Of a DNA stretch of 64,000 nucleotides, positions 660-64,000 are shown piece by piece (position 1 is the first letter of the stretch; the number at the start of each line of letters is the position of its first letter). The position numbers and the translations under genes are program-made. The notes below the pieces were generated by a model, which worked only from the letters and a program-made list of their open reading frames with translations, was not told where the DNA came from and searched no databases. Source of the stretch: Tubulanus polymorphus. Taxonomy: Eukaryota; Nemertea; Palaeonemertea; Tubulaniformes; Tubulanidae. The stretch spans positions 1,116,001 through 1,180,000 of the forward strand of contig NC_134028.1 of assembly GCF_964204645.1 (NCBI RefSeq), written 5' to 3'.

Positions 660-1383
660 GGTAAAGCACAAAAATGCCTGAATTCTAAGAGATTTCAAAG
701 TCTGGGCACGAAATCTTATTTAACAGAGGTTTAGCCTAGCTGGTGCCAGAAAACACTGGGAGGAATGAACGCTTTTTGCTGCTTCAACTTATGAATTACC
801 ATCAAATGTATGAAACAAATGGATTGACATAGAACAACAGTTCCTATTTACATACATTGAATAATCAGCAGTTTTGTAATGCAAAGTTATACATATAGAA
901 AAAAACTACGTTTATCACAGAGCATCACAATATTCATTACATCAGGGATCCATTCACAACGTACAAAGATTCACCACTTTCCCTATATACACCTTGTTAA
1001 ATTTCGCTTACATAATTCATTAATGGCCTCTGATCAATATTCTTAGCACAGCGTGAAAAATCTGCTGGATTGTCACCAGCAGAAAGAGATAAGTCACTAT
1101 TTCACATGTATTTCTTGAGGAATCTTCTTTTTTAAAATCCAAAATTATGAAATTAAAATTTAGGCAGGTCTCAATTGAATATATTCCAGTTGATCAAGTA
1201 CGGATTACAAACTCTCTATCGGCTGCTACTATCAGGTTTACAGATTACTCTATTCTGGAATAGATAGAGCGTATTCTAGTCAAAACAAGTACACCATCAG
1301 GAGAATTGCGAAACCCGGTAGAGACCAACCTGAACATCATCAGGAACAGTAAACAATGGATGGATGAAGATGAGATAAAACTA

Positions 1384-4300
1384 TCAATGTTGAATCGGTT
1401 CATGTTTTGCAGCGTCACCTACGTTATTATTATTAATGTCTTTATTCGATAAATCGACAGGTTTTAAACCGTGTATTTTACCCGCACCATCCTCCGCAGC
1501 TGCACCTGCTATATTCGGTGCAGCGATATTGTTTTTATTCGTATCACCAATTTTGTTGATGTCGTTATTTAAGATTTTCTGAGCTTCGTTGATGATTTTT
1601 TCTTGCGCTTGCATTTTCTCAACGAGTTTCTGATTTTCTTGTATATTTTTCTGAATAGCGACTTTCGTAACTTGTTGCTGTTTGTCGCCGTGGGCTGCGA
1701 CGTCCTGTTTGATGACTTCCTCTGCAATATTCTTCTTAACGGGGTTCTCAACAACCTGCTGAACTACTGGGTTAGCCGGTTTGACCACTCCTCCAAGATT
1801 GACCCCTCCTGCCTGATTGACCGCTGCTGCAGGATTGACCGCTCCTGCTGGATTGACCACTGCTTCCTCGTTGACCGCTCCTGCCTGATTGACCACTCCT
1901 GCAGGATTGACCGCTGCTGCAGGATTGACTGCTCCAGCAGGATTGACCACTCCTCTAGGATTGACTGCTCCAGCAGGATTGACCCCTCCTGCAGGGTTGA
2001 CCACTCCAGCCGGATTGACCCCTCCTGCCTGGTTGACCACTCCAGCAGGATTGACCCCTCCCACTGGATTGACTGCTGCTGCTGCTTGGTTCCCAGCAGC
2101 AGGATCAATCTAAAAGGAAAATGTTTTTGTTCAAATCAAAAGCTGATGAGACGAGTAATAAATACCATCACACTATATATAAATAGTTATTATTCATACT
2201 GTGATCATTAGCATTATTAATATATTGAAATCTGCGGCAGTTTGTGTAGTATAGATTATACTTGGGCAGTTCATTAGTCTCAAACCTCCACAGGGTCTAG
2301 TATTCAATCTAGTAAACAGTCCCGGGCGGGGTTCACACCTCCACAGGGTCTAGTATTCAATCTAGTAAACAGTCCCGGGGTTCACACCTCCACAGGGTCT
2401 AGTATTCAATCTAGTAAACAGTCCCGGGGTTCACACCTCCACAGGGTCTAGTATTCAATCTAGTAAACAGTCCCGGGCTGGGTTCACACCTCCACAGGGT
2501 CTAGTATTCAATCTAGTATACAGTCCCGGGCTGGGTTCACACCTCCACAGGGTCTAGTATTCAATCTAGTAAACAGTCCCGGGGTTCACACCTCCACAGG
2601 GTCTAGTATTCAATCTAGTATACAGTCCCGGGCTGGGTTCACACCTCCACAGGGTCTAGTATTCAATCTAGTAAACAGTCCCGGGGTTCACACCTCCACA
2701 GGGTCTAGTATTCAATCTAGTATACAGTCCCGGGGTTCACACCTCCACAGGGTCTAGTATTCAATCTAGTATACAGTCCCGGAGTTATTGAGTTTAACAA
2801 ACCTTTTCATTTTCTTTATGGTCCTCTTTATGTTGTTTTAATTCCTTCAATATCTGTTTCTGTTCGACCAATAGTTGTTTTTGTTCTTCTTGTTGTTTTT
2901 CTAACTTTTTAATCAGTTCGTGTTGTTGCTCTTCTAGAGGCTGAACGATCAAAATACAATAACAATCAGTAAACACTAACGAGCCGATCGTAAACAGCTT
3001 TATTCTTGAGGCTTACCTTTTTCTCTTCCTCATTTTTCTTCGCCTCTGGTGGCGCCTTAAGTCCGAGTTTAGCTTCCGTAACTGGCTCCTGTTTATCTAT
3101 AACAACATCCTTCTAAAAATAAACAATGACAACGAATGCCTTAAAAACTGATTTCAAATTTCAGACTTGAACAGAGTACCGGTATATATAGCCTATTGTA
3201 GAATTTTGAGGTTGTAAGTTTTACCAAATAGTGACCATCCGTTTTCAGAGTTAAGCAGGGTCCACAGTGACCACTAACTGAACTCTAACAACGGTATGAT
3301 CAGTTTATACGACCGATGTATGATCAGGGATTGTAAAACTTACAAGTTTTTCATTTGGTTTCTGATCTTTTTCTGACTCATCTGGCGGGTGCGGTATCAC
3401 TGGTTCCAGGCGTTTTTCGTTTCCTGCATCCACTGCAACTAAAAATCAAATCAAAGGTCAGTTTCTAAATTTCAAATTTCATCAAGAGATCCGTACAGAT
3501 GATATATACCTGGTTTTTCTTCAGGTTTTGCTATTTTCTCGACTTCATTCTTTAGTTGTAGGTCATTCTGCTGTTTTAAGTCTATATGAAATTCAATATA
3601 GTTATATTAGACTGATAATGAGTGAAAGGTTACACGTAGAATACAGAAGTCTATTTTCTATAACTCTTAATGTAAACTTCCCTATCACTTCTTGAACTAT
3701 CTCATAGTTGCCAAAGAGCTATTACAAAATCAGCCATTGTTCAAAACTGACCAAAGAGTATTGAGAATGAAGTTGTTCGCATTTCCAGCCGATCACGAAC
3801 CGTGTCATCACGTACTGTGTGTCACAGTGCAATAAGAAGGATAATCTATGAGATAACTCGTAGGGGCAATGATGGAGGAACTGGAATAATGAGATATCGC
3901 CCAGCCAGCAGCAAACATGTCATTCATGTTACCTGGTTTATTTCTGACTATATCAGCAGGATTGGTAATCGGTGGTTGTTGAATTGGAATGTTGTCTGGT
4001 TTGTTGTTATTAGGTTGTACGGGGTCTTGCTGTGATTTATCATGCGACATCAATGTAGTATATGTACTAGCTAACAGTAACGTTACTCCCAGAAACAAAA
4101 CAAACTGAAACAACAAGAGTTTTTAATTTACTGAGCCATTGAGATTTTACTCAATGTAGCCATTCAGTACAGTTCACTCCTTCCTCTTAACACGAATGCA
4201 TCTGGTTGCAAAGAACTTTTTGAGTCTAATGTGAAGCGAAATTATTATTTACATCATAATTTAGTTTCCATTTACCTGTGCTGAAGATTTACTGATTTTA

Positions 4301-10662: not shown

Positions 10663-11500
10663 TTTGTTTTATTAATTTTATTTCGAGTTCATTCCGTTTT
10701 CGAGTTTAATCAGGACTATGGGGATTGATGATTTTGTGTATACAGTCGACACTAATGAGATTCAAGGAACCACAAGATTTTGCCTTCTATATCTTATATT
10801 TGTTAAGGCTTAGATGTTCAAACAATTATCCATCACGTTTCAACCCCTTCACTTCAGACCTTGACAATTGGAGAAATGTAATTATCAGAAATCTGGCATT
10901 TGTAGGAAATTTAGGAGAATTCGTAGAATGTTTCAGAGTGAGGGGGTGGCAAGGTACCACCTATCCTATTGCTGCAACCTAACATCAGATCGAAGGTTCA
11001 TTCATGATCAGACCGAGAACCAAACCACCAGTAGTATATCAGAAATCCAGTAGATGGCGAATGCAGCTGCATCATCACCTCAGAATAAGTCTAACCATGG
11101 ACGTATAAACTAGATTTCTAGTTCATACGTCCATGGTCTAACACCGACCTCTAAAGTCTATTAAACCAAACCTGATGAATTTTACAAATATTTCATAGAA
11201 CAAACAAGTAATTATGATCAGATATACAAGTTGCATTATCATAAATAAATAATAATATAAAATCTACACAAATGACAATCACTTACATCTCTCTTCATTC
11301 AGTATTATCAGCAGACGTGGGGTAATTAAATCAAGGAGCAAAGATCGAACGAATTACCTTATCAAATGTAGATAGATATGAATTGTTTTGGCAGGTGATC
11401 CCAAATCGATGCCCTCCTGTAGTTAGGTCTGGGAGACGGCCTCCCTGAGTTAAGAGTAGATATTACAATCAGTTTAACCAATAAAGGTTCGCTAACATTT
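10663..11500. other. intergenic region between actin and the DECR2-like gene
   Basis: The two genes converge here. I see no coding sequence with support. The region holds the 40-bp palindromic element at 11096-11135 and the 3' UTR of the minus-strand reductase. The minus-strand motif AATAAA (TTTATT on plus) is not clearly placed just after the stop codon. Confidence 0.5.
11096..11135. mobile_element. 40-bp palindromic micro-element, copy 1, with 7-bp direct repeat
   Basis: The element starts CATGGACGTATAAACTAG and ends with its reverse complement around a 5-nt loop; the arms differ at one position. It is flanked by GTCTAAC at 11089-11095 and 11136-11142, a 7-bp duplication. A related copy sits at 49758-49789 with a different 7-bp duplication. 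It cannot encode anything and would have to be moved in trans. Confidence 0.75.
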
Positions 11501-19784: not shown

Positions 19785-19869
19785 AACTGTAAGTTTTGAT
19801 TCATTTCTGAAATTTGGGCTTATTTATAATATAAGCCCAAATTTCAGAAATGAATCAAAACTTACAGTT
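19785..19869. repeat. perfect inverted repeat, 39-bp arms, 7-nt loop
   Basis: The left arm 19785-19823 and the right arm 19831-19869 are exact reverse complements, separated by TTATAAT. Just before the left arm, CTGAAAGTAACTGTA occurs twice (at about 19758 and 19777). I found no flanking target duplication. It lies about 245 bp upstream of the start codon of the reductase gene. It is probably a foldback element or a replication-error palindrome. Confidence 0.85.
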
Positions 19870-21201: not shown

Positions 21202-21880
21202 ATTACCCTAGTGTTGGCCTGATCAATCAACGCAGTAACCCTAGTCTTGGCCTGATCAATAAACGCAGTAACCCTAGTGTTGGCCTGGTCAATAAACGCA
21301 GTAACCCTAGTGTTGGCCTAGTGAATAAACGCAGTAACCCTAGTCTTGGCCTGATCAATAAACGCAGTAACCCTAGTGTTGGCCTGGTCAATAAACGCAG
21401 TAACCCTAGTGTTGGCCTAGTGAATAAACGCAGTAACCCTAGTCTTGGCCTGATCAATAAACGCAGTAACCCTAGTGTTGGCCTGGTCAATAAACGCAGT
21501 AACCCTAGTGTTGGCCTAGTGAATAAACGCAGTAACCCTAGTCTTGGCCTGATCAATAAACGCAGTAACCCTAGTGTTGGCCTGTTTAATAAACGCAGTA
21601 ACCCTAGTGTTGGCCTAGTGAATAAACGCAGTAACCCTAGTGTTGGCCTAGTGAATAAACGCAGTAACCCTAGTGTTGGCCTGGTCAATAAACGCAGTAA
21701 CCCTAGTGTTGGCCTGCTGAATAAACGCAGTAACCCTAGTGTTGGCCTAGTGAATAAACGCAGTAACCCTAGTCTTGGCCTAGTGAATAAACGCAGTAAC
21801 CCTAGTGTTGGCCTGTTTAATAAACGCAGTAACCCTAGTGTTGGCCTGGGACAGGCAACCAGTCTACCCTAGTGTTGGCC
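21202..21880. repeat. 33-bp minisatellite with 99-bp higher-order period, about 20 copies
   Basis: The unit is AATAAACGCAGTAACCCTAG followed by TSTTGGCCTRRTS. Variants differ at the CTTGG/GTTGG base and at the GATC/GGTC/AGTG/GTTT joint. In the first part, three variants rotate in fixed order (a 99-bp super-unit, about four times). With a period of 33, long frames are open on both strands (NKRSNPSVGLV on plus); these are not genes. The array ends about 250 bp before the DHRS7B-like start codon. Confidence 0.95.
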
Positions 21881-22128
21881 TGGAAAGGAAGTTACCATGG
21901 TTGCCCTGATGTGGATATTCTCGGAGCCACCCATTTCTCGCGAAACCTGCAAAGGCGACCCTGCGATTGAACTTTCTTATCTTTTTTCGAGCTGTTAGGT
22001 ATGTGTATGTTCAGGTAACTTAAGAAATAAAAGTTTTTCCATACATATATATTAAAGCTTCCATTTGAGTATTCAATCGTTGACATACTGTTAAACTTGT
22101 TATATTTGACAGCTGAATTTCAGTGAAG

Positions 22129-49030: not shown

Positions 49031-49757
49031 TTAAAACCGATGATGTACATGCTACAATAAGATATTAGACTGACTCACCTGCTAAATGTGACCGTTCTAT
49101 CAAACTCCGCTATTCATTCCTATCTGATTCCTATTCGATATATTTATGTTTATCACTGACTTCGAGATAATCACGTAAAACAGCGTTCAAAGAAAAAACT
49201 ACAATTCCGACATTGTAATTTCGATCTATGCACTTGATTTCCGAGAAACGTTTTTTTACTCACTTCACGGTGAACTAGGTATACATGTATACTCGATATA
49301 AAATCATTATTCCGCAGAAATGTATTTCTTTATCAATGACACGATGGGTTTTTTATGTTAGTGATAAGAAACACAGGTTTCCTTGTATTGAGCTATATTT
49401 GCGGAACAACTTCCGTGTGTGAGATGAGAAACAATTAAGTAATGACTAGACTGTGAAACTGCAGATCATTCCAGACGTATGGCATTGGATGAGGGACAAT
49501 TTTCTAATTTTAAACGGTTTTGTCCTCGGCAAAATTTCAGGTTTCTGTCAATGAATTTGAAATTGGTTTCATTTCAAAATATCGCGCAATTTGTTAACAC
49601 AAATCTATGACACTGTACTGATTATAACATCATGACCTAAATAGAAACATTTAAGCATCCAAACCATTTCTAATTAACAATTCTAATAGAATTTTATCGA
49701 AATCCCATAAAATTAAAGTAAAAATATGCTTTTAAAAATATATCGCCTGCTTTAAAT

Positions 49758-49789
49758 CATGGACGTATAAACTAGATTATACGTCCATG
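49758..49789. mobile_element. 32-bp palindromic micro-element, copy 2, with 7-bp direct repeat
   Basis: It starts CATGGACGTATAAACTAG, identical to the first 18 bp of copy 1 at 11096, and ends TATACGTCCATG. It is flanked by TTTAAAT at 49751-49757 and 49790-49796. It is a shortened version of copy 1, with 12-bp arms and an 8-nt loop. Confidence 0.75.
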
Positions 49790-49797
49790 TTTAAATC

Positions 49798-62804: not shown

Positions 62805-64000
62805 GAATTCACAGGTCCCATACGATACCTTCATCGCTTACCCCCGTGCATAAACAGAATTCACAGGTCCCATACGATACCTTCATCGCTTACCCCCGTG
62901 CATAAACAGAATTCACAGGTCCCATACGATACCTTCATCGCTTACCCCCGTGCATAAACAGAATTCACAGGTCCCATACGATACCTTCATCGCTTACCCC
63001 CGTGCATAAACAGAATTCACAGGTCCCATACGATACCTTCATCGCTTACCCCCGTGCATAAACAGAATTCACAGGTCCCATACGATACCTTCATCGCTTA
63101 CCCCCGTGCATAAACAGAATTCACAGGTCCCATACGATACCTTCATCGCTTACCCCCGTGCATAAACAGAATTCACAGGTCCCATACGATACCTTCATCG
63201 CTTACCCCTACCCCGCCCACCCCGTGCATAAACAGAATTCACAGGTCCCATACGATACCTTCATCGCTTACCCCGTGCATCAACAGAATTCACAGGTCCC
63301 ATACGATACCTTCATCACTTACCCCTACCCCGCCCACCCCGTGCATAAACAGAATTCACAGGTCCCATACGATACCTTCATTACTTACCCCTACCCCGTC
63401 CACCCCGTGCATAAACAGAATTCACAGGTCCCTTACGATACCTTCATCACTTACACCCCCCCCCCGTGCATAAACAGAATTCACAGGTCCCATACGATAC
63501 CTTCATCACTTACACCCCCCCCCCCCCGTGCATAAACAGAATTCACAGGTCCCATACGATACCTTCATCACTTACCCCTACCCCGCCCACCCCGTGCATA
63601 AACAGAATTCACAGGTCCCATACGATACCTTCATCACTTACCCCTACCCCGCCCACCCCGTGCATAAACAGAATTCACAGGTCCCATACGTTACCTTCAT
63701 CACTTACCCCCGTGCATAAACAGAATTCACAGGTCCCATACGATACCTTCATCACTTACCCCTGTGCATAAACAGAATTCACAGGTCCCATACGATACCT
63801 TCATCACTTACCCCTACCCCGCCCACCCCGTGCATAAACAGAATTCACAGGTCCCATACGATACCTTCATCGCTTACCCCCGTGCATAAACAGAATTCAC
63901 AGGTCCCATACGATACCTTCATCACTTACCCCCGTGCATAAACAGAATTCACAGGTCCCATACGATACCTTCATCACTTACCCCTACCCCGCCCACCCCG
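62805..64000. repeat. 52-bp minisatellite reaching the window end, about 22 copies
   Basis: Each unit contains AATTCACAGGTCCCATACGA, TACCTTCATCGCTTACCCC and CGTGCATAAACAG. The first eight copies are identical. Later copies carry an extra CTACCCCGCCCACCC block or C-tract changes, and CACTT replaces CGCTT. The array continues past 64000. Open frames across it are repeat artefacts. Confidence 0.97.

Follow-up and report, generated by a model that had tools for sequence, protein, structure and literature searches.

Short palindromes flanked by 7-bp direct repeats are scattered through the genome studied here, and each is very probably the footprint left by the excision of a P-superfamily DNA transposon, an event that we infer from one assembly. 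That single natural assembly holds 570 such palindromes of a narrow size class, distributed over four P-like families, while the corresponding controls total three. In the window's family and in one of the others, most of the sites examined keep their flanking duplications, and the stretch of transposon end that is retained is near-fixed in length, at 18–19 rather than 17 nt, with many ends shorter.

The window, that is, the whole stretch of 64,000 nucleotides that was analysed (contig C4, positions 1116001–1180000), contains two of these palindromes (Table 1): one of 40 bp at 11096–11135, composed of 19 + 2 + 19 nt and lying between perfect GTCTAAC repeats, and one of 32 bp at 49758–49789 between perfect TTTAAAT repeats. 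The preliminary description had reported both palindromes and their 7-bp repeats at these positions, and the sequence bears this out. When sought in the window with up to three mismatches, the 18-mer with which the palindromes begin is matched four times, by both arms of each palindrome, against a chance expectation of 0.06 on average; none of 100 shuffles reached four. The window also carries two perfect hairpin palindromes unlike P-like ends (538–648, with 51-nt arms and a 9-nt loop, and 19785–19869, with 39-nt arms and a 7-nt loop), as well as tandem arrays at 62805–63984 (units of about 52 bp), 21205–21883 (about 33 bp) and 2280–2786 (about 49 bp).

Table 1. Parts of the two palindromic sites in the window (window coordinates; TIR, terminal inverted repeat)
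Feature	Position	Strand	Basis
Left 7-bp target-site duplication GTCTAAC	11089–11095	.	Exact copy at 11136–11142
Outer 19 nt of one transposon end, retained (CATGGACGTATAAACTAGA)	11096–11114	+	Identical to positions 1–19 of the 38-bp TIR of L124
2-nt junction TT between the two retained ends	11115–11116	.	CTAG-ATTT-CTAG join recurs at locus L014
Opposite end, outer 19 nt retained, one substitution (A to G at position 12)	11117–11135	-	Sequence
Right 7-bp target-site duplication GTCTAAC	11136–11142	.	Sequence
Left 7-bp target-site duplication TTTAAAT	49751–49757	.	Sequence
Outer 19 nt of one transposon end, retained	49758–49776	+	Sequence and L124 TIR
Opposite end, outer 13 nt retained	49777–49789	-	With the left part, the recurrent 32-bp form CTAGA/TTATACG
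Right 7-bp target-site duplication TTTAAAT	49790–49796	.	Sequence

Both a genome-wide search for the shared end and a test of its copies for flanking duplications had been called for, and the 268-Mb assembly (77 contigs) was searched accordingly. With up to two mismatches allowed, the 18-mer has 1402 matches (719 + 683) and its reversed control 8 (6 + 2); for the exact 12-mer CATGGACGTATA the corresponding figures are 860 (437 + 423) and 30 (15 + 15), a ratio by which about 3.5% of the 12-mer matches may be due to chance. One hundred listed places of the 12-mer resolve into 84 sites, which on scaling up gives an estimate of about 720 sites for the window's family, an extrapolation from contigs C1 and C2. 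Our site table leaves out 5 of these 84 and has 80 rows for 79 sites, 77 from the genome and 2 from the window, with L016 entered from both strands and with L067, L076 and L086, whose flanks are identical, counted once. A 7-bp repeat, sought with at most one mismatch after a CATG end (itself with at most one mismatch) and within 190 bp, accompanies 51 of the 80 rows and is exact in 43. The suggestion of a dispersed family with genuine 7-bp target-site duplications is thereby substantiated: the window's two palindromes are not the only copies in the genome, nor are the other copies devoid of flanking duplications.

Among the 29 rows without a repeat by this definition are one-sided joins and repeats that are displaced or have more than one mismatch. 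At L003 and L013, one end is intact and the other is eroded into the duplication; L016, L068 and L078 have shifted or diverged repeats, and at L024 and L027 the sequence continues like that of the larger element described below. The 51 repeat-flanked palindromes range from 20 to 137 bp in length, with a peak at 32 bp (14 rows). The duplications favour T at position 2 and A at position 6 (72 of 86 each, the 43 duplications having been counted on both strands, so that the preference is symmetric by construction), and the target preference of the window's family is palindromic and GTYNRAC-like. L031 and L077 have similar flanks and, to judge from these, may represent one event. One short scar-like sequence occurs at L067, L076 and L086, and because its left flanks are identical over 150 bases at all three places, it was copied inside another repeat or duplication. 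In the filler of L099 the motif GACGTATAAACTAG recurs in altered form, and the two outer 7-mers of this scar match in inverted and not in direct orientation.

The larger element with the same ends that the preliminary description had proposed to look for is present in several copies (L123, L124 and L125). L124 is a whole copy of 1147 bp with a 38-bp inverted repeat, both of its ends reading CATGGACGTATAAACTAGAAGGACGGCGCACCAGCCTA, and is flanked on both sides by CTTATAC; in L125 (1216 bp), where the flanking repeat is GTTTGAC, the right end lacks 2 bases. Two further pairs of facing ends, read as ends only, were located: one on C6, with a spacing of 1.19 kb and GTCGAAT on the flanks, and one on C7, with a spacing of 1.21 kb and flanking 7-mers that agree in 6 of 7 bases. 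A domain search of the genome for the P transposase (PF21787) gave 20 matches, as against none in 14 control genomes, and for two of the 20 an exact 18-mer end lies about 2 kb further out. The longer copy L123 starts with CATGGACGTATAAACTAGAAGGAAGGCGCACCA, the same end as that of the palindromes, and its broken coding region yields pieces scoring above the cut-off for PF21787 (1.4e-6) and PF21788 (2.5e-5) and below it for PF21789 (5.5e-5) and PF12017 (8.1e-4). P transposases carry a THAP domain at the N-terminus; none was matched in the seven L123 pieces searched for it. As a right end of L123, C2:10108760 is not supported, its flanking 7-mer not being shared.

Short terminal inverted repeats beginning CA..G are the rule in the P superfamily. 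Repeats of this type in L124, P-type transposase domains in L123 and duplications of 7 bp place the parent element in this superfamily, the link between the transposase and this particular end running through one copy, L123, with a broken frame and an unsupported candidate right end. The first 688 bases of L123 match 18 stretches at 13 places. A 23-mer that runs past position 18 into the element has 41 matches with up to two mismatches, 14 of them exact (control 0); the matches include several short remnants (L133, L134, L136 and L137). Scar ends thus outnumber element ends by about 30 to 1 (1402 matches of the 18-mer against 41 of the 23-mer, in searches that were not equally strict). L131 (C7:12850572, plus strand) and L132 (C7:12881403, minus strand) lie 31 kb apart in opposite orientation, with the same element end and the same 12-base flank, which suggests an inverted duplication.

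In the proposed sequence of events, a larger element with inverted repeats of about 38 bp beginning CATGGACGTATAAACTAGA would have inserted and duplicated 7 bp of its target. A P-type transposase would later have made a staggered cut, on one strand at the element boundary and on the other some 18–19 nt inside, so that each chromosome end would have kept a 3′ tail of about 18–19 nt of transposon sequence, and the host would then have sealed the break tail to tail, without putting the element back. The tails carry the self-complementary CTAG near their tips, and annealing there could account for the common 32-bp forms: with tails ending in CTAG or CTAGA, CTAG pairing would give CATGGACGTATAAACTAGTTTATACGTCCATG, and retention of the terminal A unpaired would give the form seen at 49758. 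Limited copying would lead to forms with filler, such as the 40-bp copy at 11096, and trimming to shorter and one-sided forms. Three parts of this account are drawn by analogy: that the cuts were made by the family's own transposase, the polarity assigned to them, and repair through microhomology or polymerase-theta-type end joining.

The extent of the retained ends is consistent with such a cut. In 92 ends taken from loci L017–L100, agreement with the larger element is 84–87% over positions 13–16, 78% at position 17 and 73% at position 18, and then falls to 50% at position 19 and 12% at position 20; the palindromes keep only the outer 17–19 nt, and a single end matches beyond position 19. Position 19 carries A in 46 of the 92 ends, pointing to a 19- rather than an 18-nt cut in the window's family, and T in 32, a base expected there wherever the join makes a perfect palindrome. 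One-base microhomology, which may be present at some joins, blurs the deduced stagger of 18–19 nt by about one base. The match ends at positions 12 to 14 in 27 of the 92 ends, and such shorter retained ends probably come from trimming or mutation. The pattern CATGGACG-N8-19-CGTCCATG, which describes the window's family, occurs at 164 sites (control 1), and at the 50 listed the longer end measures 18 nt in 14, 19 nt in 16, 20 nt in one and 22 nt in one; one scar that keeps 22 nt is L137.

If the palindromes are scars of cutting and joining, other P-like families should show palindromes ending at a similar distance, whatever the sequence of their ends. Three further P-like families do show similar palindromes. 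Family A, represented by L103 (the G000:C4:10193313 region), has a 33-bp terminal inverted repeat, CAGGGAAGTGTGATGAGATGGAATACGGACGCT, the duplication GTTCTAG and an open reading frame with PF21787; 133 palindromes of 24–35 bp carry both of its 8-base ends exactly (control 0). Of the 20 sites examined in this family, which alone among the three supplied data on duplications at palindromes, 17 have an exact 7-bp repeat, and none has a repeat of any other length from 4 to 10; two of the 20, L144 and L145, have common flanks and, on that basis, may be one event. The longer end at the 50 listed sites, with a G-to-A variant of the end allowed, is most often 16 nt (16 sites), followed by 18 nt (12) and 19 nt (9), and never more. 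The L103 reading frame (1291–3144, minus strand) has a match below the cut-off to the zinc-finger domain zf-AD (PF07776; 1.1e-5, 26.0 bits, cut-off 28) at its N-terminus, the place of the THAP domain in P transposases.

In family B (L105), with the inverted repeat CAGGGAGGTGGGAGTGAATGG... and the duplication ATATGAC at the element, the 58 palindromes (control 0) keep a longer end of exactly 18 nt at 23 of the 50 listed sites and nothing longer at any of them. The third family, represented by L108, has the inverted repeat CATGGACTCTAAAACGAAGGG..., whose first seven bases are those of the window's family, and the duplication GGTAAAC; it comprises 215 palindromes (control 2), 8 of the 50 listed reaching 18–20 nt, with ends that are more varied and in many cases unlike the end of that copy. 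At the 50 listed sites of each of these three families the kept ends are thus at most 20 nt, under search patterns that limit total length to 35 bp and would still let one end keep up to 27 nt. A retained length set by sequence and not by distance is unlikely to apply, since families A and B, with ends unlike those of the window's family, stop at a similar distance; the ends of A and B resemble each other somewhat. That the window's family might be A or B itself was rejected, their ends beginning with CAGGGAAG and CAGGGAGG.

What lies between the retained ends bears on the view, taken in the preliminary description, that the 32–40-bp palindromes are tiny mobile elements. On such a view they would be ultra-short MITEs for which a P-like transposase acts in trans. 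Their dispersal, their common ends and the exact 7-bp duplications would all suit such elements, as would the occurrence of one perfect 32-bp sequence, CATGGACGTATAAACTAGTTTATACGTCCATG, at 10 of the 50 listed short sites of the window's family and of one sequence at 16 of the 50 listed in family B. However, length varies among the repeat-flanked rows, and the 50 sites of the window's family comprise 30 different sequences, with no single interior shared by all. Six joins recur, at 10, 6 (a 29-bp form), 4 (the 49758 form), 2, 2 and 2 sites, which makes 26 sites, and the other 24 are unique; recurrent joins are expected of repair at favoured microhomologies, and a small mobile element would show them too. 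Beyond the retained ends, the joins vary through microhomology, filler or erosion. The filler resembles the tails, with a mean longest shared run of 6.84 against 4.23 after shuffling (reached in none of 2000 shuffles) across 19 fillers, but some of these are mutated right arms, which inflates the figure, so we give this likeness little weight. Further against mobile elements of this size, the shared part breaks off at a near-fixed point, which lies about equally far in where families differ in their ends, similar palindromes occur in three other P-like families, and erosion runs into the duplication at L003 and L013. The palindromes also lack the internal sites that P transposase binds next to its 31-bp repeats, as set out in passages of PMC7776569. 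Taken together, these observations make the MITE explanation very improbable.

No better placed, and marginally the less probable of the two, is the idea that the palindromes are internally deleted, non-autonomous copies, a few perhaps still mobile, which arose when gap repair was aborted following excision. A few longer remnants that keep more than 19 nt of the end would fit: L133, L134 and L136, of about 61–77 bp and without an exact 7-bp repeat, are what aborted gap repair might leave, and L137 could be added to them for its 22 nt. For most sites, the sharp step after position 19, beyond which only the one end in 92 continues, argues against this origin, and the joining of tails explains them without repair synthesis. 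An origin by chance, or from unrelated palindromes whose flanking repeats are a coincidence, has next to no probability: the window does hold other perfect palindromes, but the four families number 164, 133, 58 and 215 sites against 1, 0, 0 and 2 for the reversed patterns, and the repeat is of exactly 7 bp at those 17 of 20 family-A sites.

Returning to excision footprints, one of them, L012, lies in a short palindromic repeat whose family, CTTGGAGTAATCATTTGAAATGATTTCAAATGATTACTCCAAG, has matches at 26 other places in the genome. Relative to its flanks joined with one CTTGGAG (240 bases), its own site has 39 extra bases (32 + 7), and in the 50 further rows at the 26 other places none has more than about 8. 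Most of these matches begin a few bases from the duplication, and 11 rows at 9 places extend at least 5 bases past it. This lends modest support to an older repeat having been interrupted at L012; short alignments might end at the insert, and the comparison does not tell excision from insertion. The joined flanks of 37 footprints and of the two window sites, compared with the examined loci and the window, gave no footprint-free copy crossing the join, the only exception being a weak self-palindrome at L008.

To our knowledge, scars of this kind have been known only from induced laboratory excision, and in the open-licence literature searched (titles and abstract openings) we found no report of natural, genome-wide P footprints. 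The mechanism is already known; what appear to be new, within the searches made, are its abundance in a natural genome, the 7-bp/18–19-nt geometry and the families themselves, that is, P-like families with 7-bp duplications, a deduced cut of 18–19 nt (17 in Drosophila) and scars that far outnumber the elements. More tentatively, we suggest that P-like transposons could be largely self-erasing in this lineage, their breaks being mended mainly by microhomology-type joining of the 18–19-nt tails and not by copying back, so that each family would dissolve into hundreds of scars; the window's family has about 720 estimated sites against the 13 places matched by the start of its coding copy. If this doubtful possibility were true, cut geometry and germline repair could be read from the scars. 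The number of palindromes in one natural assembly would itself allow us to work out, without experiment, where a transposase lineage cuts, which targets it prefers and how its breaks are repaired. Annotators are also warned that a short palindrome between duplications in an animal genome may be the exit wound of a transposon and not a miniature mobile element.

The closest known counterpart is the P element of Drosophila melanogaster. Its transposase leaves 17-nt 3′ single-stranded tails, and the element inserts with 8-bp duplications, as described in passages of PMC7776569. Excision junctions recovered in flies with the P{wa} assay consist, in the account given in parts of Chan et al. 2010 (PMC2895639), of the duplication, the 17-nt tail in whole or in part, a microhomology or templated insertion, the inverse tail and the duplication again, which is the same anatomy as that of the sites described here, and their ends likewise start with CATG. 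The differences lie in the dimensions and the setting: an 8-bp duplication, 17-nt tails and induced laboratory excision in the fly, compared with 7 bp, 18–19 nt and hundreds of sites here. Galileo, Newton and Kepler of Drosophila likewise belong to the P superfamily and make 7-bp duplications, and the Galileo consensus GTAGTAC resembles the GTYNRAC-like preference of the window's family; the inverted repeats of Galileo are unusually long, whereas those of the elements reported here measure 33–38 bp (portions of PMC2775673). The zebrafish Pdre2/THAP9 P-like elements show that animals other than Drosophila have such elements; their inverted repeats likewise start with CA and some of their copies are internally deleted, but they differ in having, according to sections of PMC10983969, 13-bp inverted repeats and 8-bp duplications.
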